A stretch of DNA of 16,788 bases. Origin: Acidobacteriota bacterium (GTDB taxonomy: Bacteria > Acidobacteriota > Terriglobia > Terriglobales > Acidobacteriaceae). A program made the translations under genes and the position numbers. The notes beneath the pieces are model-generated. The model made no database searches. It was not told the DNA's origin and was given only the letters and a program-made list of their open reading frames with translations. Numbering within the stretch: position 1 is the first letter of the stretch; the number at the start of each line of letters is the position of its first letter. The DNA is taken from positions 1-16,788 of the forward strand of contig JAJZIF010000030.1 in assembly GCA_021810735.1 (NCBI GenBank), in the 5' to 3' direction. Positions 1,594 through 15,385 of the stretch are shown here, in pieces.

Positions 1594-1684
1594 GATGAAT
1601 TTCATGAAGCGCCGCAACGCACATCTGCTCGTCCACGATATCCTGAAATGTGAAAACCCTTGCTGTCCATCAGGGGTTTTGAGA

Positions 1685-1696
1685 GGACTGCTTGTG
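1685..1696 (+). promoter_or_regulatory. Ribosome site that decides the uxaA start
   Basis: AGAGGA at 1682-1687 lies six bases before GTG 1694. The upstream in-frame ATG at 1595 sits one base after the transporter stop and has no Shine-Dalgarno of comparable quality. Confidence 0.5.
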
Positions 1697-3331
1697 CCAG
1701 ACATTCGTAGAATTCTAAAGCTCGATCCACGCGACAACGTGCTGGTTGCGTTAACGCCTCTTGCGGCCAATGAACCGATAACGTACGCAGACGCCACATA
1801 TGTTCCCGTCACCGACGTTCCCGCGAAATTCAAGTTTGTCGAACATGACATGCCGCTTGGCGCCGAGATCATCATGTACGGCGTTGTAGTGGGCAAGGTT
1901 CGGGAGCCGATCCCGGCGGGTGGCGTCGTGACCACAAGGAATCTGCAGAACGACTCTAGTGCATATTCCACGACGCGCATGAGTCATCCGTGGAATGCGC
2001 CCGATATTTCATCGTGGCGGCAACGTAGTTTTCTCGGCTACCACCGTGGTGACGGCAAGGTAGGAACCAGAAACTATTGGCTGGTTTTGCCTCTAGTGTT
2101 CTGCGAGAACCGGAATGTCGAATTGCTCCGGGAGGCCTTCGAGGAGGAATTGGGCTATCGCAGGCACAACGACTATCGTCGTCAGGTAAGGGATCTGATC
2201 GCTCGCCGCAGCACCCCACGGTCGGAAATCCGGGTCGCCGAGCCAGAGTCCGACGCAACTCCCATTTTCCAAAACCTGGATGGAGTCAGGTTTCTCTTCC
2301 ATGAAGGCGGCTGTGGCGGCACCCGACAGGATGCTCGCGCACTGTGCGGTCTCCTTGCAGGATACATCCAGCACCCGAATGTTGCGGGCGCCACCGTGCT
2401 GAGCCTCGGCTGCCAGAATGCAGAAATTTCGATGCTGCTCGAGGAAATACGCAAACGAGACCCGCAAACGAGCAAGCCTGTACTCATCTTCGACCAGCAG
2501 GCGTTGGGGCTGCAATCGAACATGCTCGGTCGGGCCATCGACCAGACATTTACCGCTCTTGAGGAAACCAACAAGTTGCACCGCGCTCCCGCATCCCTGA
2601 CGCAATTGACAGTCGGCCTGAAGTGCGGCGGCTCCGACGGCTTCTCCGGCATTTCAGCAAACCCGGCGCTCGGCCATCTGTCAGATATGCTGGCCGCGCT
2701 CGGAGGCAAGTCGATTTTGTCGGAGTTCCCCGAGTTATGCGGGGTCGAGCAAGATCTCATCAATCGCTCCGTAAGCCAGGCTGCAGCAGATCGCTTCGCG
2801 CATCTTATGACGACCTATGCAGGACGGGCCAAGGCGGTCCACTCCGGCTTTGAGATGAATCCTTCCCCCGGAAATATCCGCGACGGGCTTATTACCGATG
2901 CCATGAAATCTGCTGGAGCTGCGCGAAAAGGCGGAACGTCGCCAGTTGTTGATGTACTCGACTACCCCGAATACGCGACCACGCCAGGACTAAGTCTGCT
3001 TTGCACTCCAGGCAATGACGTGGAGTGTGTTACCGCCCAGGTCGGCGCGGGGGCGAACCTGGTACTGTTTACCACCGGCATGGGAACCCCCACGGGCAAT
3101 CCCATCGCTCCTGTCGTGAAGGTGGCGACCAACACACCAATGGCTACCCGGATGTCCGACATCATCGACATCGACGCCGGAGGCATTCTCACCGGTGACT
3201 CCACCGTCGAGGAGATGGCAGAAGACATCCTGGAGTTGGTCATCGACGTTGCCAGTGGACGCAGACAAACAAAAGCGGAGATCAACGGACAGAACGACTT
3301 CATTCCGTGGAAACGCGGGGTTTCGTTGTGA
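1694..3331 (+). CDS. uxaA: Altronate dehydratase (UxaA family, SAF plus catalytic domain)
   Basis: The protein converts D-altronate to 2-keto-3-deoxy-D-gluconate in galacturonate catabolism. An N-terminal SAF domain (about residues 1-85, beginning near KLDPRDNVLVAL) precedes the long UxaA/GarD catalytic domain. Family hallmarks are GYHRGDGKVGTRNYW, the Cys/Gly segment HEGGCGGTRQDA, LKCGGSDGFSG and the late GMGTPTGNPIAPVVKVATN. The frame is open from an ATG at 1595, but that ATG has no clear ribosome site and adds 33 residues unlike any SAF domain. A GTG at 1694 has AGAGGA six bases upstream and starts right at the SAF domain, so I prefer it (545 aa). The gene follows the transporter on the same strand and is probably cotranscribed. 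The enzyme acts in the cytoplasm and is a lyase that likely needs a divalent metal, as known for the family. Confidence 0.9.
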   Translation: MPDIRRILKLDPRDNVLVALTPLAANEPITYADATYVPVTDVPAKFKFVEHDMPLGAEIIMYGVVVGKVREPIPAGGVVTTRNLQNDSSAYSTTRMSHPWNAPDISSWRQRSFLGYHRGDGKVGTRNYWLVLPLVFCENRNVELLREAFEEELGYRRHNDYRRQVRDLIARRSTPRSEIRVAEPESDATPIFQNLDGVRFLFHEGGCGGTRQDARALCGLLAGYIQHPNVAGATVLSLGCQNAEISMLLEEIRKRDPQTSKPVLIFDQQALGLQSNMLGRAIDQTFTALEETNKLHRAPASLTQLTVGLKCGGSDGFSGISANPALGHLSDMLAALGGKSILSEFPELCGVEQDLINRSVSQAAADRFAHLMTTYAGRAKAVHSGFEMNPSPGNIRDGLITDAMKSAGAARKGGTSPVVDVLDYPEYATTPGLSLLCTPGNDVECVTAQVGAGANLVLFTTGMGTPTGNPIAPVVKVATNTPMATRMSDIIDIDAGGILTGDSTVEEMAEDILELVIDVASGRRQTKAEINGQNDFIPWKRGVSL

Positions 3332-3542: not shown

Positions 3543-6026
3543 TCATCGACTGCCCTGGTATCGCTGGTTTTTTAAAGGTGCGAACTTGGTGGATATCGAG
3601 CCAGCTACCGGAAACTGAAAGCTATCTACAGAAGTAAGCCCATCAAGAGCTTGCGCAGTCAGCTTCACCGAGTAGTTACCAGCTTGTGTGTATGCGTGGC
3701 TTACCTGCGCGCCGGCGAGAGATACCCCGTCGCCAAAATCCCATCGATAAGAAATAACGGGCGCCGTCGAACTCGCGAGTTGCGCAGAAAACAACACCAC
3801 CTCACCGGTTGCTCCCGCAGACGGATGCTCAGCTTGAACAACAGGTACCTGCGCCGGGACGGCAGTATCGATGATCTTCAGAACTCTGACGGAATGAGAC
3901 GGCTGCGTCACAGTAAGGGCATTCGATTCCGACAATGAAGCGTGTTTCTTGTCGAATACTTCCTCCACACTGTAGGAGCCGGTTCTACTTAGCCTCAAGC
4001 TGGCAAGAGTTACCGTGTGACTTCGTGCACCGTCCGTCCAATTGAAGATGGTCAGGATGGTTTGTCTCGGACTTTCCTTCAGCAGAAACATGCTCGGCTG
4101 GCTGTCGCTCGGCAGATACGACATTAGATCCAAGGGCCTCGACGAGCGACCGAGGCGGACCATATCGATCAAATCTTGACTTTGGACCAATGCGAGCCGG
4201 TTCGGTTCGGACCCGAGGGTAGGTAAGTCATCCCCGATTTCATACATGCCTCCCGATACTGCGGACAGTGCGATGGAGACTTCGGCTTCATCCAACGTAA
4301 GAGGGTGTTTCCCACCATGCCAAGACTGATCATTCAAGGTTTGTTTGGAGACACTAAAGGCATCGGGATCCGCGACAAAGTAGTTGCGATTCATGTAATA
4401 CCGCGCGGCAATCCCTGATGCCGCATCCTTACTGGCACCGAATGTATGCCCAGTGTCTTGAGAGATGCGGCCAAAATCAACGTAGCCGACAGGATCCAGC
4501 ATTACACTCCCGTCTTTATCTAATAAGACATTGTTTCCAACGGCCTGGCGGATGATGCCCAAACCTATCCTCTGCGCTTCCATGGCTGTTGTATGAGGAC
4601 GATAGTAATACCCTTCGATCGCAGTGTCATCCATGAAATCCATCTTGATATAGCGGATTCCCCATAGATCGACAAGGGTCGTGTACGTCTTCCGCAGATA
4701 TTCCTGTGCGCCTGGGTTGGTGCAATCCAGCACGAACAAACGGTCATTGCGATCTGTCACCCAACCAATATGGATGGGCTCGCCTTTTGCGTTGTGGACT
4801 AGCCAGTCGCGGTGGTTCCGGTACACCCAGGAGCGCTCGGAAACTTCGAATGGCGCTGTCCAGATTCCCGGAACGAGGCCGAGACTTGTTACCTTGCGTT
4901 CCAGTCCTGCCAGTCCGTGAGGGAAGAGGGTTGCGTCCGGCGTGCTGTATTCTCCACGAGCATACTGGTAGCCCTCATCGATATGAAAAAAATCATATCC
5001 GAGCGACTTCAGGTTCTGTGCTTCCCATTGTGCGTTGGTCAGCGCAGTTCCCGCGTTCAAGCCGAAATAGTAAGAGGTCCAACTCCACCATCCCATGGGT
5101 ACGGGTGCCGTGACCCGAGATTGATGAATCTTCCGGATGATGGTTCCATAGGTTTCGAGTTGCCGATGATAGTCCGTATCTAGGCTAAGCAGCAACTTCT
5201 CTGACGATAACTGCGCTCCCGGTGCGACCGGCAATTGCAAGCTCACTTGATCGTCAGCAACGGCGTGGCGAAGAGATCCCCACTGGTCCGTTTCTAACTC
5301 CGTTGTTCCAGTGGAATCCACCTCATACGCAGTGATGTGCTTTTGAACGGCGCTTCCTTCCAAATGGATGCGAAGAATTGTCAGGAAATGGTCTGAGGTG
5401 AGCGCGCCGGCAAAAAAACTTTCATGGCTCTGCCTGCTATAAAGCAGTTGACTGCCAACGCCGCGGTACATCGCTGCGTCGCCCAGGTCGTGAATTGTGA
5501 TATTTGGCCGATCCTCGCTGAAGCTATCGGAAAGCACTCTATCTTCAAGAGGAGAGCCACCCAGGTCAAGTATGGAATTTCCGACTGCCGCAACAGGACG
5601 AATCGATTCTACTTCGACAGGCTTCGTCGTGGTGTTACGAACGAATACCTGGATATCTGCGAACGGCTGACTGGGATATGCGCGTAAGCGATAAATAAGA
5701 TCCGGCTCGCCGGGCAAGCCGGAAAAGGTAACCGTCCACTCGTCCGCAGTACCCAGGTCGTCCGACACGCTGGAATGAGCGATGGCATGATGCGGATAAT
5801 CTTTAGATTCAATCCAGCGACCGTGCAACTGAACAGCAACTTCAGCATGGAGTACCGGCCGATCCAATTTCAACGCGCCGATTGTGTAACTTCCATCGGA
5901 AGGATCGACCTTCACCAGGAGCGCATGTCCCACAGTTTGCGCAGTCAAATGCACGACATGGCAGAAGGCAGCCAGAAAAGCTCCCGCTATCATGAGAGCG
6001 CAAGTCCTGACATGCGTCAGACGCAT
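3543..6026 (-). CDS. Secreted GH36-like alpha-galactosidase with C-terminal PKD domain
   Basis: This 827-residue exported glycoside hydrolase of clan GH-D probably releases alpha-linked galactose from plant oligo- or polysaccharides. Residues 1-30 form a signal peptide. A beta-sandwich (about 35-300) precedes the (beta/alpha)8 barrel (about 305-600), which starts at MGWWSWTSYYFG (311-322) and contains FFHIDEGY. The predicted nucleophile is D463 in IKMDFMDD and the predicted acid/base is D524 in GRISQDTG, spaced as in GH36. The barrel ends with SGGMYEIGDDLP. A C-terminal sandwich (about 640-720) is followed by a PKD domain (about 725-808) with the hallmark YRWDFGDG. The start ATG has only a weak GGGA upstream; an ATG 11 codons later would shorten the signal. 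The gene is flanked by two copies of a hairpin repeat and converges with uxaA. Substrate is inferred; a GH27-like or other clan-D specificity is possible. Confidence 0.8.
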   Translation of the reverse strand: MRLTHVRTCALMIAGAFLAAFCHVVHLTAQTVGHALLVKVDPSDGSYTIGALKLDRPVLHAEVAVQLHGRWIESKDYPHHAIAHSSVSDDLGTADEWTVTFSGLPGEPDLIYRLRAYPSQPFADIQVFVRNTTTKPVEVESIRPVAAVGNSILDLGGSPLEDRVLSDSFSEDRPNITIHDLGDAAMYRGVGSQLLYSRQSHESFFAGALTSDHFLTILRIHLEGSAVQKHITAYEVDSTGTTELETDQWGSLRHAVADDQVSLQLPVAPGAQLSSEKLLLSLDTDYHRQLETYGTIIRKIHQSRVTAPVPMGWWSWTSYYFGLNAGTALTNAQWEAQNLKSLGYDFFHIDEGYQYARGEYSTPDATLFPHGLAGLERKVTSLGLVPGIWTAPFEVSERSWVYRNHRDWLVHNAKGEPIHIGWVTDRNDRLFVLDCTNPGAQEYLRKTYTTLVDLWGIRYIKMDFMDDTAIEGYYYRPHTTAMEAQRIGLGIIRQAVGNNVLLDKDGSVMLDPVGYVDFGRISQDTGHTFGASKDAASGIAARYYMNRNYFVADPDAFSVSKQTLNDQSWHGGKHPLTLDEAEVSIALSAVSGGMYEIGDDLPTLGSEPNRLALVQSQDLIDMVRLGRSSRPLDLMSYLPSDSQPSMFLLKESPRQTILTIFNWTDGARSHTVTLASLRLSRTGSYSVEEVFDKKHASLSESNALTVTQPSHSVRVLKIIDTAVPAQVPVVQAEHPSAGATGEVVLFSAQLASSTAPVISYRWDFGDGVSLAGAQVSHAYTQAGNYSVKLTAQALDGLTSVDSFQFPVAGSISTKFAPLKNQRYQGSR

Positions 6027-6424: not shown

Positions 6425-7705
6425 CTACTCGACAAGCTGTAAATTGAGGGCAATCCGCACGCCGTTCACCAGAACGACGCTTTGGTTGATGACATCCTGA
6501 CTGGTAATTTTGTTCTCGACGAAGGAACGAATGGAGTTCAGAGGACAAATGTAATCGACAGTTTCAGAAGGAGACTTCTCTGCCCCGAGGCGATTGCGTA
6601 CGGAAAAGTCGAGCGAGTCGTATTCCGCGTTTGCCGGCAGTTCCTTCAGCAGGCCCTTCAACTCCGGCGCAAGAAAAAGATCGAAAGTTTGAGCGGCACG
6701 CTTATAAATTGAACTCGTACCCGTCTCGAAGGACAGGGTATTTCGCATCGTGAGATGTAAAACTGTCTGATCGCCGCGACTTTCAAACACAGGTGGCGCG
6801 CTTTCCATCAGATGAAACCTTGTTCCATCTACTTTCAGCATCGCATTGAGTTGCGGCTGAAACTGCGCCTGCAACCGCATTGCATCCGCAGATGGTGGAG
6901 GCTTCAAGTCGGACTTCGATTGTGCAACCGCCGGAGAGGCCATGACTGCAGAAGCGGCGCCGCCAGGAGTGGAAGCCGTACTTGCTGAAACAGAGGAAGA
7001 CTGTGTTCGCTCCTGACGCGGGACCGAGCGCTCAAGGGCCTGCACGTTGAGCGGGGCCCTCTGGCCAAGCGCAAGACCGAAGGCCTTGCCATCCACAAAA
7101 ATGTCCGAACGATTGAGAATCTCCTGCCGCTGCGTATTCCCGGATGTATTCAGATAAGCGAATGCGTCCTTCCGATCGAACACGACAGTCAGGACCTCCT
7201 GGCCCTCAAAGTCGTAAACCTTGTTTGCGTCGCGCGTGTCATAAATGATTTCAAAGCCGATACCATCGCAGTCGATGTTCGCGGGGATTTGCCGCGTGAC
7301 GAGTCGCAGGATGGGAACAAGCACGTCCTGAAAGGTCCGACTAGCGCGCTCGTTCTCCGAAAGCTGCGTCGAGTTGAAGGCCGCCTGATAAATCCCGGAG
7401 ATCTTCAATACCTCCCGACCTTCAAAGTAAACAAATTCGATCCCGTTGCGATCCGATGCCGCGCGTTGGCCAGGTTTTGCGTTCAAATAGCGGGCCAGCT
7501 TGAAGGGATAGGGGAATTTCGTCGCGGCAATCGATTGCTGGAGGGATTGGAGTTGCGGAAGATACTTGGCTTCGTCGGCTTTCAACTTTGGATTCAGTAT
7601 TCCATCTGGAGCCACCTGGCCGAATGCCGCTATCGTCATGCCAAGAAGCAGACCCACCGTGATGGGCCCGCGCGCGGCGCTGAAAAACCGGGCGGCGCAT
7701 CTCAT
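6425..7705 (-). CDS. Secreted protein of unknown function with internal duplication
   Basis: I do not recognise a family for this 426-residue protein. Residues 1-29 look like a signal peptide ending at AAFG-Q. The rest is two related halves joined by a Ser/Ala/Pro-rich linker (about 216-270). Half A (about 45-215) has SRTFQDVLVPILRLVTRQIPAN and QEILNRSDIFVDGKAFGLAL. Half B (about 277-425) has AQTFDLFLAPELKGLLKELPAN and QDVINQSVVLVNGVRIALNL at the same spacing. There is no CxxCH and only a few scattered Cys. Its ATG overlaps the stop of the upstream cytochrome gene by 4 nt (ATGA), so it is almost certainly translated with the cytochromes. It is the last gene of the operon. A periplasmic or outer-membrane-associated accessory role in the electron-transfer module is inferred from position only. 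Confidence 0.75.
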   Translation of the reverse strand: MRCAARFFSAARGPITVGLLLGMTIAAFGQVAPDGILNPKLKADEAKYLPQLQSLQQSIAATKFPYPFKLARYLNAKPGQRAASDRNGIEFVYFEGREVLKISGIYQAAFNSTQLSENERASRTFQDVLVPILRLVTRQIPANIDCDGIGFEIIYDTRDANKVYDFEGQEVLTVVFDRKDAFAYLNTSGNTQRQEILNRSDIFVDGKAFGLALGQRAPLNVQALERSVPRQERTQSSSVSASTASTPGGAASAVMASPAVAQSKSDLKPPPSADAMRLQAQFQPQLNAMLKVDGTRFHLMESAPPVFESRGDQTVLHLTMRNTLSFETGTSSIYKRAAQTFDLFLAPELKGLLKELPANAEYDSLDFSVRNRLGAEKSPSETVDYICPLNSIRSFVENKITSQDVINQSVVLVNGVRIALNLQLVE

Positions 7706-8265
7706 GAAGGCTTATTTTTCCGGTCCCGGGGAGACCCGCTCGACGACTTGCGATATGCCGGCACGGCAATGGCCCGCATATAAGCAATCAGATTGCGGAT
7801 GTCGTCCTGCGTCAGCGACTTGCCGTAGGGCGGCATCATGGCCGATTTTCCCATGGCCCGTCCTCCCCGCGCAATGATTTGTTGCAGAGACGCATCGCTC
7901 ATTCCATTGAACACTGTTCCGTCGTTCATCAACGGAGGCGCAGGCGTAACGTTGGAGCGATTGGAAGGTCCAGCCGGCGTAGAGTCCGCATGGCACCATA
8001 CGCACTGTTGGTAGAAAATGAGCTTACCGTGTGCCGCATGATAATCCAGTGGAATGATGCGTTGCGGGTCGTTCCAGTCAGTCTCAGTTCCATAGGAACC
8101 AAAAGAGGCGTACTGGTGCCATGCCGGATGCGGCACGGATGTGACGATCGCGCCCTGACCCCGCGACCAGCACCAGCAGGGCGGGTTGGGAAAGCGTTCC
8201 ATCACGTATGCGGCCAGCCCTAGACATCCAACCACAACAGAGAAGAAAATCAGCAGGTACTTCAT
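7702..8265 (-). CDS. Membrane-anchored monohaem cytochrome c
   Basis: This 187-residue class I-like cytochrome c is predicted to sit on the periplasmic face. The N-terminal hydrophobic segment (about 3-21) is either an uncleaved anchor or a signal; VVGC at 11-14 resembles a lipobox, though the signal would be very short. The haem motif is CVWCH at 88-92. The likely axial Met is in SAMMPPYGKSLTQDDI (M143 or M144), followed by the usual C-terminal helix LIAYMR. An unusual Cys-Trp-Cys (30-32) lies just after the anchor and may form a disulfide or bind metal. Both ends overlap neighbours by ATGA: the start with the stop of the six-haem cytochrome, the stop with the start of the duplicated-domain protein. 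This points to tight translational coupling and a likely stoichiometric complex. Confidence 0.85.
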   Translation of the reverse strand: MKYLLIFFSVVVGCLGLAAYVMERFPNPPCWCWSRGQGAIVTSVPHPAWHQYASFGSYGTETDWNDPQRIIPLDYHAAHGKLIFYQQCVWCHADSTPAGPSNRSNVTPAPPLMNDGTVFNGMSDASLQQIIARGGRAMGKSAMMPPYGKSLTQDDIRNLIAYMRAIAVPAYRKSSSGSPRDRKNKPS

Positions 8266-10205
8266 TGCCCCCCTCCCGCTACCGCGGCAGATGCAGCGCT
8301 CCCCGATGCCGGGGCCTGCTTCAATGTCAGCAAATATGCGGTCAGGTCCCGGATCTCATCTTCAGTAAAGGAATGTCGCGGCTCGATTGTGCCCGGGACC
8401 AATGACTGAGGATCGTGCAACCACGCCTCCATCCACGCGGGAGTCAGCCAGTTGCCCGCATTGTTCAGGCTCGGGCCGACATACCCCCCGGACGCGCCGA
8501 TCGTATGGCAGGACTGGCACTGATATTTTGCCGCGTAGAGTTGCTTCCCGCGTTCCGCCATCTGCGGCGTAAATTCTTTTTCATCGATCGCTGTGGGATT
8601 CACATGCGGGTCTTGAAGCGAGGCCGATAGATAATCTGCGATTATGGTTGCGTCCTCTTTGGACATATTGAACTCCGGCATTCGCACCGTAAGTGTTGGG
8701 CGAAGCGTTTGCGGATTCTGTAGGAATGCGATCAGCCATGCGTGTTGCGACCGGCTGCCCTCATACGAGAGGCTTGGCGCCAAAGTCCCACCATATCCGT
8801 TGAACGCATGGCACACATAGCACTTATACCGATTGTAGAGTTGCTGAAATTGGCCATCGGGATGAAATTCCGGGTGCGGACGCGGAACGATCAAAGACTT
8901 CTGCGTACTGCCCGTGATCGGTGGGCCGCTCATACTGAGCAGGGCGGTCGTTAAATCGTCCAGGTCGGCCTGGCCCAGATGAAATTGGGGCATGTGCGTC
9001 TCAGGGCTGACGGAAACCGGGTTGGTTACTTTTGCCTGGATGTAAGAAATCATGAACTTTGGAACTTTCGACACACTGATGTCGAGTTGCGATACATTCC
9101 CTTTCACAAAATGCAATGGCTGTGACTGTTTCTGTGCCACCTTGACCTGAACAAGATAAGGACCTGCCGCCATGCCGAACGCGGAAAGATCGGGGGCGAA
9201 GTTGCTGCGCGGGGTGACTCCTCGGATTACATGGCACTCGGCGCAGCCCTTTTCGACGAACAACTGCCGGCCAAGTTGTATCTCCGCATCGGTGGGCGCC
9301 CCCAACTGCGGCACATCCTTCAACAGGTCCGGATCGGTAAGCCGTTTCAGGATGTACTGCGTCACTTCATACAAGTCCTGGTCGGACCACTGAAACTGCG
9401 GCATTTTGGTGTGCTGTAGATAGCTCTGCGGGTCGCGCAACCAGGCCACCAGCCAGTCCGGCTTCACTTTGCTGCCGACCTTCGTCAGCTCCGGTCCGAT
9501 GTCTCCTCCGATGAGCGTGGTCTCTCCGCCTCGGTCAACGGCAAGCGCATGGCACGTGACACAAAACATCTGGTCAAACCGTATCTTGCCCTGGTCCGCC
9601 GCATCTCCCTTTTTGGCCACGGCAGCAACGACGTGCGGGCTGAATCTATACGGCGCAACTGGCTTTGCCCGCTGGACGCTCAGGTACGCCGAAAGCGCGC
9701 GCAACTCCTGATCGCTCAGTTGGAATTTCGGCATGCGTGGATCGGTGTCCACGCCGTCAACAGTCACGTTGCCATCCGCGTCGGTGAGTGTGCGCGGCTC
9801 TTTTAGCCACTTGTAGATCCATTCGCGGCTCACCTTGGTCCCCACGCCGGTCAGGTCCGGTCCCAGCATGGCGGGGCGATCGATGTCCTGTAGTTGATGA
9901 CATGCGATGCAATTGAACTTTACGATCAACTGCCGGCCATGGTTCAGACGGGGCGTCTGGTGAAGGTCATCTCGATGGCATGCTCCGCAGCTACCTTGCA
10001 CGTATTGTGTTGGCAGGACCGGCTGCTTCCATGCGAGTATGCCGGGCCGCATGTCTACGGACCGGACGGGCCCCCGCTTGTACTGTTTCCAAGCGTGCCA
10101 ATCCGTTCTTACCTGCCAGAAGATCAGGACCAGCAGAACGGCTATACAGAGGGCGAACACATAAGACGCCCAGGAAACGGTCTTTTGCAGTTTTTCAGAT
10201 GACAT
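8262..10205 (-). CDS. Membrane-anchored six-haem, multi-domain cytochrome c
   Basis: This is a 647-residue periplasmic electron carrier with an N-terminal anchor (about 13-31). Six haem c motifs are visible: CGACH (73), CIACH (99), CVTCH (215), CAECH (321), CYVCH (462) and CQSCH (563). They form about five class I-like domains, the first carrying two haems. Most domains end with a Met ligand motif followed by an acidic helix start: RMPKF (M158), KMPQF (M268), HMPQF (M405), RMPEF (M509). The last domain has EPRHSF instead, so H611 replaces the usual Met. The frame is open from an ATG at 10265, but the ATG at 10205 has GGAG five bases upstream and leads directly into the anchor, so I prefer it. 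The stop overlaps the next cytochrome start (ATGA). Its role as an electron wire between porin-cytochrome, cupredoxins and the membrane chain is inferred. Confidence 0.88.
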   Translation of the reverse strand: MSSEKLQKTVSWASYVFALCIAVLLVLIFWQVRTDWHAWKQYKRGPVRSVDMRPGILAWKQPVLPTQYVQGSCGACHRDDLHQTPRLNHGRQLIVKFNCIACHQLQDIDRPAMLGPDLTGVGTKVSREWIYKWLKEPRTLTDADGNVTVDGVDTDPRMPKFQLSDQELRALSAYLSVQRAKPVAPYRFSPHVVAAVAKKGDAADQGKIRFDQMFCVTCHALAVDRGGETTLIGGDIGPELTKVGSKVKPDWLVAWLRDPQSYLQHTKMPQFQWSDQDLYEVTQYILKRLTDPDLLKDVPQLGAPTDAEIQLGRQLFVEKGCAECHVIRGVTPRSNFAPDLSAFGMAAGPYLVQVKVAQKQSQPLHFVKGNVSQLDISVSKVPKFMISYIQAKVTNPVSVSPETHMPQFHLGQADLDDLTTALLSMSGPPITGSTQKSLIVPRPHPEFHPDGQFQQLYNRYKCYVCHAFNGYGGTLAPSLSYEGSRSQHAWLIAFLQNPQTLRPTLTVRMPEFNMSKEDATIIADYLSASLQDPHVNPTAIDEKEFTPQMAERGKQLYAAKYQCQSCHTIGASGGYVGPSLNNAGNWLTPAWMEAWLHDPQSLVPGTIEPRHSFTEDEIRDLTAYLLTLKQAPASGSAASAAVAGGGQ

Positions 10206-10350
10206 GCCTGCTCCACGGCGAGGGTACAGCGTATCGTACGCAGCTTCGGCAGATTGAACGAGCATTCTTACATTTGCAATTGAATTTCAATCCGCTCAGG
10301 TTCACAACTTTGCCTATAGCATCCACACGCAAACCCCCATTGTTCAACGC
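10206..10350. other. Gap between second cupredoxin and six-haem cytochrome
   Basis: This is the longest gap inside the operon. It contains a 13-bp odd palindrome ATTGAA-T-TTCAAT (10279-10291), which could be an internal regulatory site or chance. No terminator-like hairpin with a T-run is seen. The upstream in-frame ATG of the cytochrome (10265) lies here. Confidence 0.35.
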
Positions 10351-10364
10351 TTATTGCTTCACGG

Positions 10365-11024
10365 TCAGATCCACGTTCGTTGTCTGCTGCATAGCACAGC
10401 CGCATGGGACGCAGTTGCAGTCAGGCTTGGCCCTGCGCCCGTATCGGCTTGCACAGTCACCGCCTGCGTTGTAGGCTTGGCGTCTTCGCTCCACGTCTTC
10501 AACAACGTGTACCGGCCTGGGGGGACATTTTCGATCGTGTAGATCCCTTCTTTGTCAGTTACCGCAAAATACGGTGTCGGCACAACGAGAATGTAGCCCG
10601 ACATTCCGGAGTGGACTTTGCAGAGCAATGGGGCCACGCCCAGTTCATCGAAGGTGAAGGATTTCACAATCCTTTGCGGCCATGTGCCCATATTGCGCGC
10701 CAATTTATGGTCGTTATCGATGGCGGGCCAATACACGTTGTGTTGGACCGGGTCATCGTTGAGAAAGTTGACTGAGGTCCCTTTTAAAATAACAAGCACA
10801 TGCGGAACGAATTCCATGCGTACTTGGTCCATGACCGCATGCAGCACCGGCGGCGGAAATGTCTTCCCTGGAATGCGATCGATGTATACAACGATGCCTT
10901 CCGGGGAATGCATTCCTTGCGCTGCGATCTTTCCTTGCACATCTCCTGCCTGGGCAAAGCGTGCCAGCGATATCGCCAGGACAAAAACAGCGGACAACAC
11001 AGCGAGCTTCTTATGTTCGGCCAC
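10365..11024 (-). CDS. Secreted cupredoxin with carboxypeptidase-regulatory-like tail (copy 2), C-terminus frameshifted
   Basis: The protein is a predicted periplasmic type-1 copper electron carrier of 219 residues. Residues 1-26 are a signal peptide (ending AQA-G). The cupredoxin part carries the copper ligands H95 (QHNVYWP), C135, H138 and M141 (CKVHSGM). A short CarboxypepD_reg-like strand region follows (TPYFAVTDKEGIYTIENVPPGRYTL, about 150-175, quoted in part for position). The start is a GTG with AAAGGAG eight bases upstream; the longer frame from 11078 has no such site. The protein is closely similar to the upstream gene's product over residues 27-190, with identical ligand numbering. 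The last ~28 residues diverge, but another frame encodes NVDLTVKQ-stop (ending 10351), matching the sister's NANLTVKR-stop. The C-terminus therefore looks shifted by an indel or a sequencing error. Confidence 0.82.
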   Translation of the reverse strand: MAEHKKLAVLSAVFVLAISLARFAQAGDVQGKIAAQGMHSPEGIVVYIDRIPGKTFPPPVLHAVMDQVRMEFVPHVLVILKGTSVNFLNDDPVQHNVYWPAIDNDHKLARNMGTWPQRIVKSFTFDELGVAPLLCKVHSGMSGYILVVPTPYFAVTDKEGIYTIENVPPGRYTLLKTWSEDAKPTTQAVTVQADTGAGPSLTATASHAAVLCSRQRTWI

Positions 11025-11031
11025 AGCTATG

Positions 11032-11046
11032 TCTCCTTTCAGGAGA
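11032..11046 (-). promoter_or_regulatory. Hairpin that sequesters the ribosome site of cupredoxin copy 2
   Basis: In the leftward mRNA, TCTCCT-GAA-AGGAGA is a perfect 6-bp stem with a three-base loop. Its 3' arm contains the AGGAG of the Shine-Dalgarno used by the GTG at 11024. Folding would hide the site and could tune translation of the second cupredoxin relative to the first. Confidence 0.45.
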
Positions 11047-11082
11047 TTGTGAAAGTTGCAACGGTCTCCGCCGCTCAATGCG

Positions 11083-11694
11083 CTATCTCTTTACTGTCAA
11101 GTTAGCGTTCGCGATGGCGGCGCCCACAGTCACTGCCTGCGTCGTAGGTTTGGCTTCCTCGCTCCACGTCGTCAAGGTGTACTTGCCAGGCGGAACATTC
11201 TTGATGGTGTAGTTGCCATCTTTGTCCGTCAACGCAAAATACGGCGTCGGCACGACAATTATGTAGCCGGACATCTCCGGATGGACATTGCAGAGCAAGG
11301 GAACGTCGCCCAGCACGTCGAAGGTGAATGGTTTTGAAATTCCCTGCGGCCATGTTCCCATATTGTGCGCCAGCTTGCGATTCCGGTTGATGGCCGGCCA
11401 ATATACGTTGTGGCCGAACGGATCCTCATTTGTAAAGTCGACCGTTGTTCCCTTCAGGATGACGAGCACATGGGGGACATAGGCCATATGTTGCTGGTCC
11501 ATCACGGCATGCTGTGCCGGCGGAGGAAATGTCTTACCCGGTATGGCGTCGATGTAAACAGCAATGTTCTCTGGAGAACGTATACCTTGCGCTGTGACCT
11601 TTCCTTTCACATCTCCCGCCAAGGCGGAACTCGCGATGAGTCCCAGGACAAGCAAAACGGCGGCCGGAAAAACGATCTTCTTTAAATTGGTCAT
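11083..11694 (-). CDS. Secreted cupredoxin with carboxypeptidase-regulatory-like tail (copy 1)
   Basis: This is a predicted periplasmic type-1 copper protein of 203 residues that would shuttle single electrons. Residues 1-26 form a signal peptide (SSALA-GD). The cupredoxin fold includes HAVMDQQHMAYVPHVLVILKG (in part) and the ligand set H95 (FGHNVYWP), C135, H138 and M141 (CNVHPEM). The tail (about 150-190) has the TDKDGNYTIKNVPPGKYTL pattern of CarboxypepD_reg-like domains. The preferred ATG at 11694 has AGAGGAG eight bases upstream; an ATG two codons earlier is too close to it. It lies 58 bp after the porin-cytochrome stop, and its near-duplicate follows 58 bp later, so tandem duplication is evident. 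Such proteins are often annotated loosely as methylamine-utilisation or plastocyanin-like. The electron partner is inferred from the neighbouring cytochromes. Confidence 0.85.
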   Translation of the reverse strand: MTNLKKIVFPAAVLLVLGLIASSALAGDVKGKVTAQGIRSPENIAVYIDAIPGKTFPPPAQHAVMDQQHMAYVPHVLVILKGTTVDFTNEDPFGHNVYWPAINRNRKLAHNMGTWPQGISKPFTFDVLGDVPLLCNVHPEMSGYIIVVPTPYFALTDKDGNYTIKNVPPGKYTLTTWSEEAKPTTQAVTVGAAIANANLTVKR

Positions 11695-11752
11695 TTCCAT
11701 ATCTCCTCTTGTAGCAGTTTGTGTTGGTTTGGCAGCGATCTATCACGCGTTG

Positions 11753-13222
11753 TTAAAATACAAAATCAACCCCCGATATGAACTGGTTGTCGCGATAAAA
11801 TGTGTTGGTCCCAGGGACAGGCTGTTGGTAGCTGAAGGAATACTGCGACTCCAACTTAATATTGGGGCGCGCAAAGATTTGCAATCCAGGACTGTAGATG
11901 TTCCGCGTGTCATAGCGTGAGATGCCATTTAGGCGGTCCGTGGGAGAGTTCACCCCGTCATAGCGCATCAGGCCGATGAGCCACGGATAGAACCAGTACT
12001 CTGCTTCGAGGAAGCCCCCGGAAAAAGTTACCGGCGTGGCGGACACAAAGGCCGTGCTGTTTGCGTTCAGGGCCTCATTCGAATCATGACCATGCTCCAT
12101 AAGACCCCAGAGTTCAAAGTCTCCGCGGAACCTATAATCGAACGCGCCACCGGCACGATAGAAAGGCTCGTGAATTGTCGGCAGCCCTGCATATTGGGTC
12201 CCTCCTTGATTGAGGGCGTTGCTGCCGAAGTAACCGAAGGCGTTGAACTTTATCCATGTGTGGTCATGAATGCCGGTCGGGCCAGAGGCCTGGATTTGTT
12301 TGCGGATCGCAGGATTCCGCTCTAAGTTCCAGCCTTGCCAAAGATTGACATAGACATCTTTGGAATTGCGCGCGGACAGCGGCGCGGTTCCGTATAAAGC
12401 GTTCTCTCCGTCCACGATGGAGACTGTCCACCATGTATAGCCTTTGTGCGGATATCCGCCAAACTCAATTCCACGCTGCGGCGATGCAAAGGTAAACGGG
12501 TTGGCCGTCGTCCCGGGGAGCGGGCCAGTGCCTGTGGGATTGACATAGGCCGTCTCGTCGTAAATTGCATAGTCGGTCAGGTTGATGGTGCGCGCCTGGG
12601 TGAACGGAAGATCGAGTTCAAATTGCCCATACCGGACATTGAGATCGTTTTTGGGAACATGCAGGTAATATCCAATGAAATTGTTTGCCTTGATGTAGGC
12701 ATCTCCCAAGCCCCCGTCGGCCCCAGAACCGCCTGTAGCTAGGTCATCGTCGATCCAGAACTCGAGCGAGGGCCCAAGGCTGCTGGCGGCAATGATGGTA
12801 AAGGTGTTGGGTTCAAAAATATCAGTTTGCGGAACAAATCCTTGCGTAGCAATTAGTGCAGGCGGCTGAGGGCTGTTGTAATTGAAGTAGCCGGAATAGC
12901 GAAATGCGATCGGTAGAATCGGAAGTTCTCCTGGCCACATGGAATGGGGAAATGACTCTTTCTGCGCCGGGGCCCCCAGCATAAGAGGCGGCTCTTTCAC
13001 AAAATCCTCATCATCCTCTGGGAACTTAAATCCGTTCATCTTGAACGCCAGCCCAAAATCATTGAGCTCTGGCCAATTGTTGTGGCAGGTGGAGCAGGCG
13101 GTATGGTACTTCCGCGCGAAGGCTGGAATCGCCGCCGCACGCGGTGCAGTAGCTTGAATCGCTATCAAAATGCCTGCCACCAAGAACGTTGTGGCAAGGG
13201 ACAACCTGACTTCCCGATCCAT
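11753..13222 (-). CDS. Cyc2-like outer-membrane cytochrome c-porin fusion
   Basis: This is a 489-residue exported protein with one haem c and a beta-barrel. A signal peptide (about 1-31, ending AAA) is followed at once by AIPAFARKYHTACSTCH, haem site C43-x-x-C46-H47. Then comes NWPELNDFGLAFKMNGFKF, matching the FAR...CxxCH...PxLxxFGxxFKxxG pattern of Cyc2-type fused cytochrome-porins as I know it. The remaining ~400 residues are alternating polar/aromatic strands with Gly/Asn/Pro turns and end in GVDFVF, with a terminal Phe as expected for Bam-assembled barrels. An in-frame TTG at 13231 lies too near the GGGAGGA site; ATG 13222 fits better. It is the first gene of the operon. Cyc2 proteins oxidise Fe(II) at the cell surface in known iron oxidisers. 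For this protein, electron passage across the outer membrane is a fair inference and the donor is unknown. Confidence 0.78.
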   Translation of the reverse strand: MDREVRLSLATTFLVAGILIAIQATAPRAAAIPAFARKYHTACSTCHNNWPELNDFGLAFKMNGFKFPEDDEDFVKEPPLMLGAPAQKESFPHSMWPGELPILPIAFRYSGYFNYNSPQPPALIATQGFVPQTDIFEPNTFTIIAASSLGPSLEFWIDDDLATGGSGADGGLGDAYIKANNFIGYYLHVPKNDLNVRYGQFELDLPFTQARTINLTDYAIYDETAYVNPTGTGPLPGTTANPFTFASPQRGIEFGGYPHKGYTWWTVSIVDGENALYGTAPLSARNSKDVYVNLWQGWNLERNPAIRKQIQASGPTGIHDHTWIKFNAFGYFGSNALNQGGTQYAGLPTIHEPFYRAGGAFDYRFRGDFELWGLMEHGHDSNEALNANSTAFVSATPVTFSGGFLEAEYWFYPWLIGLMRYDGVNSPTDRLNGISRYDTRNIYSPGLQIFARPNIKLESQYSFSYQQPVPGTNTFYRDNQFISGVDFVF

Positions 13223-13525: not shown

Positions 13526-13897
13526 TTATGCTTGCACGCATGCGCCGGGCTTCTCCGCATTGAGTAACTCCCGCAGCCGAGGTAAAACGGAGGCCCTGGG
13601 GCAACTGCCGGTCCCGCATGCGCAATCCACGAACTTTTCCGCGTTGCCCACTGCTCTTGTCTGCCCATTGCCATGTCCGTTAGACGCATTCCAACTACTC
13701 GTGTATCTTGTACCTACTTCATCACATCCACTACAAGCGTGAATGTGATGGCCGTCACACCCATGCTTGCGACTTATGTCGCAGGCATCACCAGAACATG
13801 GGAATCCTGAAGCGGAGGATTTCCTTTGCGGCGCGCTGTTTGTAAAACAGCACGGGCGAACGAGAGAATTGCAAAAATGAAAGGCCTCATGTTCCAT
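13526..13897 (-). CDS. Possible small Cys/His-rich protein
   Basis: This 123-residue frame is rich in Cys and His (for example CDGHHIHACSGCDEV at about residues 47-61 and DCACGTGSC at about 91-99), a pattern that could bind metal. The HHIHACSGC stretch resembles the metal-binding loop of Fur-family regulators, but nothing around it fits that family. Its ATG overlaps the last 11 bases of the upstream membrane-protein gene, which would allow coupled translation, but the ribosome site is weak. A CRP-like palindrome lies inside it. No signal peptide is obvious. It may be real, a decayed gene or a chance frame, and I give it low weight. Confidence 0.25.
   Translation of the reverse strand: MEHEAFHFCNSLVRPCCFTNSAPQRKSSASGFPCSGDACDISRKHGCDGHHIHACSGCDEVGTRYTSSWNASNGHGNGQTRAVGNAEKFVDCACGTGSCPRASVLPRLRELLNAEKPGACVQA
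13744..13759. promoter_or_regulatory. CRP/FNR-family-like palindrome 1
   Basis: TGTGATGGCCGTCACA matches TGTGA-N6-TCACA exactly. It lies about 520 bp upstream of the porin-cytochrome start. A nearly identical 16-mer occurs at 15149-15164. Confidence 0.45.
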
Positions 13898-14552
13898 TAA
13901 CTCTCGGTTCCCGCAGATATGGCCGGTTGGCCCCTATTGCCCCCAGGTCAACAGAACGAGTTACTTTTGCCGTTCTATTCTCCCAATTGCGAAACAGGTA
14001 CGGAGCGGTCAAAAGGGCCTGAATTCCAATCCATGTTAGATAGCAAGCAACTGCTGTTACGGCGCTGATGCTACTAAGGTGAGATTGTGTGGACAGAATA
14101 ATTCCGATAACGGACGTTATCCCTGCAAGAACACACAGCACGCCTGTCTTTCTGGGTGAGGCATGCAAATGAAACGTCAGTCCTATATACAACATGCTCC
14201 AAAAGAGACCGTACAATCCAGCAAGCAGAACAAGTGCATCCAAAGGGGCCAACCGGTACAGCCAAAAGACCAGCCAGCAAACAACAGAAAATATTCCGAC
14301 CCAAAAGTAAATATATAGATCGCGACGGCGCGATGCCCTATTTGCCAACATGCCGATACCGGCAACAAGGGCTTGTCCCAGCAGACAAATGGCTGTTAGG
14401 AATACAGTCACGATGTAACCTAATGCCTCAACCCGCGGATTTGTCATGAAGGAACCCAAGAAACAAAGCGCCATTCCGACAGCTAGCGTGAACACTCCCT
14501 GTCCCATCAAAAAACGATGGCCAACTTTCCACCCCTTTACCATTGCATGCAT
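13887..14552 (-). CDS. Multi-pass membrane protein of unknown function
   Basis: The protein has about 221 residues with roughly six hydrophobic helices (GQGVFTLAVGMALCFLGSF, then YIVTVFLTAICLLGQALV, then the YIYFWVGIFSVVCWLVFWLY segment, and three more). I do not recognise a family. The C-terminal ~30 residues are hydrophilic and Arg-rich. The frame is open from an ATG at 14624, but that ATG lacks a ribosome site; the ATG at 14552 has GGAG ten bases upstream and lies just before the first helix. Wobble positions are less GC-rich than in the neighbouring cytochrome genes, hinting at different ancestry. It is on the same strand as the operon but 660 bp away, so cotranscription is uncertain. Confidence 0.6.
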   Translation of the reverse strand: MHAMVKGWKVGHRFLMGQGVFTLAVGMALCFLGSFMTNPRVEALGYIVTVFLTAICLLGQALVAGIGMLANRASRRRDLYIYFWVGIFSVVCWLVFWLYRLAPLDALVLLAGLYGLFWSMLYIGLTFHLHASPRKTGVLCVLAGITSVIGIILSTQSHLSSISAVTAVACYLTWIGIQALLTAPYLFRNWENRTAKVTRSVDLGAIGANRPYLREPRVNGT

Positions 14553-15385
14553 CTTCCATCTTCTCCGATAAAAGCCGTCAAGAAAAAGTACTGCCCATCC
14601 TAAACCTCTGGAAACTAGGGTCATGCCGTCGTCGCATTCTTGATTGCCCGTAGGTGCGTCCAGAGGACGCGTTGCCGCGCTTCAGTTCAAGCTACTGTCA
14701 AACATCCTCCGCAGTCCCCAAGCCCGTTCCTGTTTGAGCAAGGAGACGGGACGCTGAGATTCAAAACAGCACTCCAAACGCCGTGCCTGGAATAAAGCGC
14801 GAACCAAAGGCGACGTGTGCGGAATGATTATGCCGGCAGCGCGGCTGTTCGTATATACCCATATTGCATCTATTGGCGGATTACCACTGGCAGGAGGTTG
14901 TGTCCTTGCACAACTCTACGCGGCGGCCTGCCAATTGTCATTCTTTCCATCTGTCTGCGACCCGTACGACTTCCTCTACTACCATCCCGGTCGCCAAACT
15001 GGAGGAACATGCATACCGGCACATTCCACCGTTGCGACGGACTTCTTCAGAGTGTTCTTAGCGGTCTTTGCATCCATCAAGGAGAGCAACAGGATTCCAT
15101 AATCTATCGATCTTTCCAGTAGTGTATGTGACGGGGCGCATGCCCCACTGTGATGGCTGTCACATTGGCGGCGTCCATTGAATTATGTCGGGTGTGTGGC
15201 TTGCTGACGAATGGCCGATAGGTCTGCACAAGCAGATCTACGGCATCATTTTTGAGGGATTAAGTGATCGAGGCCTGACTGTGGGAGCTTCGCTAGTTGG
15301 CAATGTGTTTTTTCGATTGCAGCACGTAAAACCAATTACATCACCAGCTTGTCGATCCTAGAAACATCTGCGCTGCGTGTCGCGT
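14553..15385. other. Gene-poor region
   Basis: No intact gene is convincing on either strand. Several frames of 60-100 codons overlap one another around 14815-15120, and none has a good ribosome site or recognisable motif. A leftward frame near 15090-14990 (MDAKTAKNTLKKSVATVEC) looks protein-like but is only about 34 codons. Structural elements seen are GCGTCC-aga-GGACGC (14656-14670), a GGGGC-gcat-GCCCC hairpin (15133-15146) and a CRP-like palindrome directly after it. Confidence 0.4.
15149..15164. promoter_or_regulatory. CRP/FNR-family-like palindrome 2
   Basis: TGTGATGGCTGTCACA is a perfect TGTGA-N6-TCACA site and differs from the site at 13744 by one spacer base. Read leftward, TACACT at 15126-15121 could be a -10 at class II spacing. 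Read rightward, TTATGT at 15183-15188 is an alternative. The target gene is unclear. Confidence 0.45.

Follow-up and report, generated by a model that had tools for sequence, protein, structure and literature searches.

Gene content and layout of the operon

The window (the whole 16,788-nucleotide stretch of DNA analyzed here, contig JAJZIF010000030.1 of an Acidobacteriota bacterium) carries a minus-strand run of six genes at 6425..13222, all present as open reading frames (ORFs) in the ORF list of the window, for a predicted Cyc2-family porin-cytochrome, two cupredoxins, a six-haem cytochrome, a monohaem cytochrome and a secreted protein. This operon is the cut-down form of a longer one. The window lineage has lost a Rieske/cytochrome b module and, with it, exactly one dihaem domain of the multihaem cytochrome, and a separate loss took place in Zixibacteria. 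Two junctions are 4-nucleotide (nt) overlaps (8262-8265 and 7702-7705) and the remaining intergenic gaps are 52, 58 and 159 nt, which bears out the six-gene same-strand operon proposed in an earlier account of this DNA (hereafter the sequence-only reading). For cupredoxin B a GTG start behind AAAGGAG is likelier than the TTG at 11078; for the multihaem cytochrome an internal ATG with GGAG ahead of it was preferred, and several homologues have the same start. The features are as follows (aa, amino acids).

11753..13222, minus strand: predicted Cyc2-family porin-cytochrome, 489 aa; signal peptide, CSTCH at residue 43, 16-strand barrel in the structure model
11083..11700, minus strand: cupredoxin A; plastocyanin/amicyanin-like domain plus carboxypeptidase-regulatory-like domain; ligands H97, C137, H140, M143
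10365..11024, minus strand: cupredoxin B, a local tandem copy; ligands H95, C135, H138, M141; likely GTG start
8262..10205, minus strand: six-haem cytochrome; N-terminal membrane-helix-like stretch; likely ATG start at 10205; without the N-terminal dihaem domain of its relatives
7702..8265, minus strand: monohaem class I cytochrome c; one CxxCH
6425..7705, minus strand: secreted protein, fold class unassigned; no family match; among the loci here, in acidobacterial operons only
13887..14624, minus strand: multi-pass membrane protein, operon neighbour; no Pfam match; adjoins the operon in 15/17 lineage loci

The porin-cytochrome

In the excerpts of Keffer 2021 used here (PMC8406198), Cyc2 proteins are marked by AXPXFAR[Q/K][T/Y] placed 5 aa upstream of CXXCH, a PXL placed 4 aa after it, a minimum length of 365 aa, and a 16-strand barrel resembling OprP and OprO, the two templates named for it. 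The window porin has a single CxxCH, near its N-terminus (CSTCH, residue 43), and the string AIPAFARKY HTA CSTCH NNW PEL fits both the upstream motif and PXL. Five residues separate R37 from C43 and three follow Y39, the same spacing as in three proteobacterial comparators, and the length of 489 aa lies above the minimum. A structure model (pLDDT 80.5, built without haem, with residues 28-34 and most of 71-101 below pLDDT 50) predicts 16 strands of at least 7 residues by manual count, in line with the 16-strand barrel that the sequence-only reading had expected. When this model was compared with solved structures in Foldseek, OprP (2o4v) ranked first (E = 3.5e-10) and OprO tenth. An ordinary porin, which the fold alone would allow, was rejected on account of the CXXCH and the Cyc2 motifs. 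Judged from its motifs, single CXXCH and length, the assignment of the barrel protein to the Cyc2 family is well supported, and the earlier description of it as Cyc2-like stands.

No Pfam or NCBIfam model matched the porin. Among 7999 candidates scored, at least 2470 homologues were found, a set not chosen by motif pattern; the closest was 95% identical and came from an Acidobacteriaceae metagenome-assembled genome (MAG), and the closest relatives of the locus as a whole are likewise Acidobacteriaceae/Acidobacteria MAGs. The family profile also matched the three comparators, which are proteobacterial plasmid proteins (E = 1.1e-16, 3.1e-15 and 1.5e-7). Two of these carry AXPXFARQT and the third AIPLFNRQT. 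All three adjoin c-type cytochromes: two have a single one as neighbour, with a HiPIP also nearby in one case, and one has three.

Gene order in related loci

Genome contigs were scanned with the patterns AIPAFARK and C[AS]TCH[NS]NW, and the best 80 of 528 confirmed loci were taken; the set is thus biased to the window-type porin, and motif invariance among these loci is partly by construction. The order porin, cupredoxin, multihaem cytochrome, monohaem cytochrome, secreted protein was kept in all ten related loci that span the operon (L004-L011, L014, L015), so that the co-conservation in other genomes expected by the sequence-only reading was found. A cupredoxin lay no more than 2.5 kilobases (kb) downstream of the porin in 62 of the 67 loci with at least 2.5 kb visible; within that distance none was seen in L055, L061, L072, L076 and L080.

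Two other arrangements were observed. Thirteen loci (L045, L046, L048, L053, L054, L057, L063, L070, L073, L074, L075, L079, L080) show a third arrangement of porin-cytochrome, dihaem cytochrome and a more distant cupredoxin with no multihaem gene; their porins are mostly of the AIPAFARKYGLPC type, and no cupredoxin was seen in L080. At L019:5964-14004, where there is no multihaem gene, a cupredoxin stands on each side of the porin; then come, ahead of the gene for the secreted protein, a cupredoxin/COX2-like protein, a ferritin-like ORF, a Fer4_5 membrane protein and a COX2 (CuA-type) protein.

The full form in other lineages

In other lineages the operon is longer by about 3.9 kb, with four extra genes between the cupredoxin and the multihaem gene, which encode a flavin NAD(P)-type oxidoreductase, a Rieske protein, cytochrome b of the b6 type and a petD-like subunit IV. 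The oxidoreductase has Pyr_redox_2 and 4Fe-4S domains, its nearest NCBIfam model being an NAD(P)-binding protein matched below its cut-off, and the multihaem cytochrome of this full form has an extra N-terminal dihaem domain. Hosts are other Acidobacteriota, Gemmatimonadota, Bacteroidota/Ignavibacteriota, Nitrospirota and Zixibacteria (by record title, L033 is from Ignavibacteriae, L039 from Gemmatimonadales, L060 and L065 from Bacteroidota, and L062 from Nitrospirae). The sequence-only reading had called the six genes of the window a complete route from the cell surface through the outer membrane and periplasm. That claim is not supported: relatives in several phyla have the flavin oxidoreductase, Rieske protein, cytochrome b6 and subunit IV, and the window lineage lost these with the matching dihaem domain.

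A search with the multihaem protein, independent of the porin, matched 28 of 297 Acidobacteriota genomes at E <= 1e-60. One of these, the cultured strain AB60 (L015), has the cut-down form; the 28 stretches from the other 27 genomes have cytochrome b and eight haems throughout (28/28), with a porin-cytochrome in 26 and a cupredoxin in 27, and in three of them the porin was found after the monohaem gene and not ahead of the operon. In the Zixibacteria group (132 genomes) there were 9 matches at E <= 1e-50, five with the six-haem form and two with the full module, the remaining matches being a longer paralogue. In the groups around L039 (200 genomes), L060 (296) and L062 (198), 3, 7 and 4 genomes, respectively, matched at E <= 1e-90, and ten stretches from these groups all have cytochrome b and eight haems (G776 of these groups and G450 and G452 of the Zixibacteria group are not among the stretches). 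The porin or the oxidoreductase is missing in some of them (e.g., L167-L169), so the Rieske/cytochrome b/multihaem core is also found in loci that lack the porin.

Octahaem genes beside Rieske and cytochrome b genes in L158, L159 and L163-L169 show additional features, namely long N-terminal stretches (proteins of ~870 aa) and, in L167-L169, upstream 783-784-aa proteins with a single CxxCH.

Paired loss of the Rieske/cytochrome b module and the dihaem domain

Haem counts were compared across 74 distinct multihaem genes, each having six or more CxxCH (cut or broken ORFs in L001, L002, L003, L018 and L156 and the duplicates L138 and L162 were left out). Eight CxxCH were present in 58/58 genes with cytochrome b and six in 16/16 without, where 'with' denotes a match anywhere in the fetched stretch; a Rieske protein was found by BLAST in 47 of those 58. 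Against its closest full-form relatives the window six-haem protein is short of exactly 81 residues, which hold two CxxCH, while the flanks are kept, including the N-terminal helix and the LAWKQP stretch. A profile of the dihaem domain found none of the 16 six-haem rows (best E = 0.61); the worst E of 2.1e-18 among the 58 eight-haem rows is circular, as the profile was trained on them. Three held-out genes from second loci in cut-down genomes (L173, L174, L176) have six haems in all, lie beside cytochrome b and carry the dihaem domain (E = 2.9e-29 to 4.7e-28). The total haem number was therefore rejected as the pairing rule, and the rule is the dihaem domain.

In one tree the window clade (11 rows, support 100/100) is nested among full-form acidobacterial rows. 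The six-haem state needs two separate changes, also in a second tree of 74 rows with the N-terminal part cut off (a quick tree with SH-aLRT support only and midpoint root). Relocation of the module, as opposed to its loss, was examined by a flavin oxidoreductase search in 17 genomes (E <= 1e-100); at this threshold the oxidoreductase was found in 5/11 cut-down acidobacterial genomes, 0/5 Zixibacteria genomes and 0/1 further acidobacterial genome, for MAGs whose completeness is not given. With the ExtP model no cytochrome b was found in the Zixibacteria genome G019.

The second loci (L173-L176) carry a divergent second porin-cytochrome (e.g., IPAFARRYKLRC) with flavin oxidoreductase, Rieske protein and a fused cytochrome b, and three of them also show a 2+4-haem cytochrome and a cupredoxin.

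Periplasmic carriers, secreted protein and neighbouring genes

Both cupredoxins have the full type-1 copper ligand set and consist of a plastocyanin-like domain followed by a C-terminal carboxypeptidase-regulatory-like domain. In Pfam, cupredoxin A scored above two cut-offs and cupredoxin B just below, with weak matches to the plastocyanin/amicyanin profiles, and the type-1 ligand pattern is kept in 85 of the 89 cupredoxin ORFs of the loci. The sequence-only reading had listed twin cupredoxins among the parts of the operon. The second copy is recent and local and not a defining part, occurring in 5/14 lineage loci that show the cupredoxin-multihaem stretch (window, L001, L002, L004, L011).

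There are six CxxCH in the multihaem cytochrome and one in the monohaem cytochrome. The six-haem protein passes the NCBIfam model for SoxX (TIGR04485; 146.5 bits against a cut-off of 61) by way of five repeated matches. Identity with SoxX was rejected, since the protein has 647 aa and six haems and SoxX is small with a single haem; no further Sox family was found among the proteins scanned against NCBIfam. For the secreted protein (6425-7705) no family was found, and a search with its structure model returned no structural match at E <= 0.001. It appears to have two related-looking halves, whose strands and helices follow a similar order in the model, with a low-complexity linker between them (residues 230-270, pLDDT < 50).

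The membrane protein at 13887-14624 lies upstream of the operon in most lineage loci and downstream in L008-L010. In loci L016-L028, which have the full form, it was not detected. Protein P0008 has a sequence similar to it fused to the N-terminus of the porin. Between 301 and 6026, on the other side of the operon, a gene for an MFS-like transporter is joined by one for a protein of the altronate/galactarate dehydratase family (1595-3331) and one for a PKD-domain glycosidase of the melibiase type (3543-6026), neighbours that point to sugar-acid and glycan use.

Proposed electron route and alternatives

The operon is probably an inward electron-uptake conduit, leading from a small donor outside the cell, in all likelihood Fe(II), to an oxidase encoded elsewhere. 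The predicted Cyc2-family porin-cytochrome in the outer membrane would take single electrons from the donor; the periplasmic blue copper proteins A and B would pass them to the six-haem cytochrome, which looks anchored in the inner membrane, and to the monohaem cytochrome; and these two would feed a haem-copper oxidase. In the ancestor, an octahaem cytochrome may have used its first two haems to dock on a b6-like core of Rieske protein and cytochrome b that had a flavin NAD(P) oxidoreductase on its cytoplasmic side. By dropping the core, the oxidoreductase and the docking haems, the window lineage would at this locus have abandoned the quinone/NAD(P)H branch and probably kept the downhill, oxygen-facing one.

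Class I cytochromes, like blue copper proteins, usually carry electrons at high potential. Three points favour inward flow: the sole quinol-oxidizing module has been removed, the carriers are of these high-potential types, and an oxidase-subunit fusion occurs in the second cut-down lineage. There, the cut-down operons of Zixibacteria open with a COX4_pro-cytochrome c fusion ahead of the porin in all three tested, with an Rrf2-type regulator before the fusion in both loci tested for it, and L038 has a PF10634 'Fe2+ transport' protein between porin and cupredoxin. COX1 (haem-copper oxidase) was found elsewhere in 19/19 related genomes searched, as would be expected in most aerobes. Fe(II) is favoured as the donor because it is oxidized by the biochemically tested members of the porin family, according to the excerpts of PMC8406198.

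A wider account, put forward tentatively and at somewhat less than an even chance, is a system of two forms. Its ancestral form would link a Cyc2-type porin, by way of a blue copper protein, with a Rieske/cytochrome b complex of the anammox type that forms NAD(P)H, and the module and docking domain would have been cut out together in at least two phyla, making a dedicated oxidase feeder.

Several results weigh against these interpretations. At E <= 0.001 the porin model matched 225 PDB chains, and as the ones listed are ordinary porins, Cyc2 is not distinguished by its fold alone. Every named member of the family whose iron oxidation has been tested is distant, and the function of Cyc2 cluster 3 is called uncertain in the excerpts of Keffer 2021 (PMC8406198). 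The paired loss amounts to two events, so that its statistical weight is two and not sixteen. The flavin oxidoreductase was found elsewhere in 5/11 cut-down acidobacterial genomes (E <= 1e-100); in the four stretches read of these five matches it is accompanied by Rieske, cytochrome b and divergent porin genes, with a multihaem gene and a cupredoxin visible in three and the fourth stopping at a contig end. Because this second locus persists, the NAD(P) branch has not been lost from such cells as a whole, and a division of labour between the cut-down operon and a separate full-type locus of another subtype is possible in these genomes. Finally, no oxidase gene was found in the window, for which the earlier remark that none was in view is right, nor beside the operon in the four relatives examined, and no catalytic oxidase subunit was found in the three listed Zixibacteria stretches. 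COX1 (haem-copper oxidase) was found elsewhere in 19/19 related genomes searched, as would be expected in most aerobes.

Of the alternatives, uptake from a donor other than Fe(II), such as Mn(II), reduced humics, an electrode or a partner cell, is somewhat unlikely. The family is very broad (at least 2470 proteins among the 7999 scored), and Cyc2 is among the proposed candidates for Mn(II) oxidation in Manganitrophaceae in the excerpts of PMC9040806; against this stand the tested family members, which oxidize Fe(II).

An outward conduit, carrying electrons from respiration out to Fe(III), oxyanions or further acceptors outside the cell, would draw on the resemblance of the full-form cytochrome b, subunit IV and multihaem protein to ExtP, ExtQ and ExtS of the Geobacter selenite/tellurite cluster (277.6 against 290, 51.4 against 150 and 99.2 against 100 bits, respectively, all under the curated cut-offs) and on the possibility of quinol oxidation by a Rieske/cytochrome b core. 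The window has no quinol-oxidizing module and has lost the companion dihaem domain, its carriers are usually high-potential, and its porin bears a haem, whereas ExtI is reported without a cofactor motif in the excerpts of PMC5877670; export is thus decidedly unlikely. A metal or oxidant stress device, in which the porin-cytochrome and copper proteins bind or oxidize Cu, Fe or another metal at the surface with no energy gain, is quite improbable. It would be suited by the copper proteins and the secreted protein, itself unexplained, that the operon encodes, by Rrf2-type regulators ahead of some relatives and by the PF10634 protein in L038, but seven c-type haems plus the porin haem would be costly for detoxification and relatives couple the set to Rieske/cytochrome b and an NAD(P)-type oxidoreductase.

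If the conduit is inward and fed by Fe(II), Acidobacteriota, common in acid soils, join the candidate lithotrophs. A long-standing question is how iron oxidizers apportion electrons to oxygen on the one hand and to the uphill formation of NAD(P)H on the other. If the two-form account is true, the ancestral form could let extracellular Fe(II) supply NAD(P)H as well as the quinone pool through a single operon; the full and cut-down forms offer a natural comparison, as the latter removes one branch, and the joint loss of the core and one dihaem domain is sequence evidence on which haems dock. Neither form was found described in the open-licence literature (subscription papers, preprints and supplements lay outside the search).

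Comparison with known systems

Cyc2 of Acidithiobacillus and Mariprofundus and Cyt572 of Leptospirillum share with the window porin the single CXXCH, the motifs, the length and the 16-strand OprP/OprO-like barrel, the last as predicted by the model. The window porin has KY where the three proteobacterial comparators have QT, and is partnered by a plastocyanin-like cupredoxin and a six-haem cytochrome, unlike the c-type cytochrome neighbours of those comparators.

The rus operon of Acidithiobacillus ferrooxidans comprises Cyc2, Cyc1, rusticyanin and an aa3 oxidase. It likewise combines an outer-membrane Cyc2, a blue copper protein and c-type cytochromes, and would work alike. In the window the cupredoxin is of another type, a six-haem protein replaces the dihaem Cyc1 and the operon has no oxidase genes, so that the rus-type combination of dihaem Cyc1, rusticyanin and aa3 oxidase genes is absent.

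The Geobacter extHIJKLMNOPQS cluster shares with the full form a porin gene accompanied by Rieske, cytochrome b, subunit and c-type cytochrome genes, and full-form proteins score near the ExtP and ExtS cut-offs. It differs in that ExtI has no haem and, in the excerpts of PMC5877670, no cupredoxin is listed for the cluster. An Ext-type selenite/tellurite system was rejected for the window, given a porin without an NCBIfam match, a six-haem protein under the ExtS cut-off (73 of 100 bits) and the haemless ExtI (PMC5877670).

The closest likeness of the Rieske proteins is to anammox complexes. For two full-form loci the best PDB match was 9rk4 (E = 5.2e-26 and 2.6e-26), then 9rk3 (1.3e-20 and 4e-22), which are the Kuenenia Rieske proteins Kuste4569 and Kustd1480 of NAD(P)-linked complexes (PMC12954380, in excerpts, as for the following). 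Those complexes (Kustd1480-1485, Kuste4569-4574) contain a b6-like cytochrome b, subunit IV, an NAD(P) oxidoreductase and a cytochrome c with six or eight haems, and are proposed to form NAD(P)H through electron bifurcation (PMC12954380). The full-form relatives share the b6-like cytochrome b, subunit IV, Rieske protein, octahaem cytochrome and flavin NAD(P)-type oxidoreductase, and thus have the NAD(P)-linked Rieske/cytochrome b set, whereas the window has no part of the core. Unlike the anammox complexes, the full form is wired to a porin-cytochrome and a cupredoxin. In AlphaFold3 models of the two anammox complexes, the parts of the multihaem subunits that take corresponding positions are the transmembrane helices and the pair of haems closest to the membrane (PMC12954380); together with the paired loss, these models suggest that the dihaem domain may dock on the Rieske/cytochrome b core.

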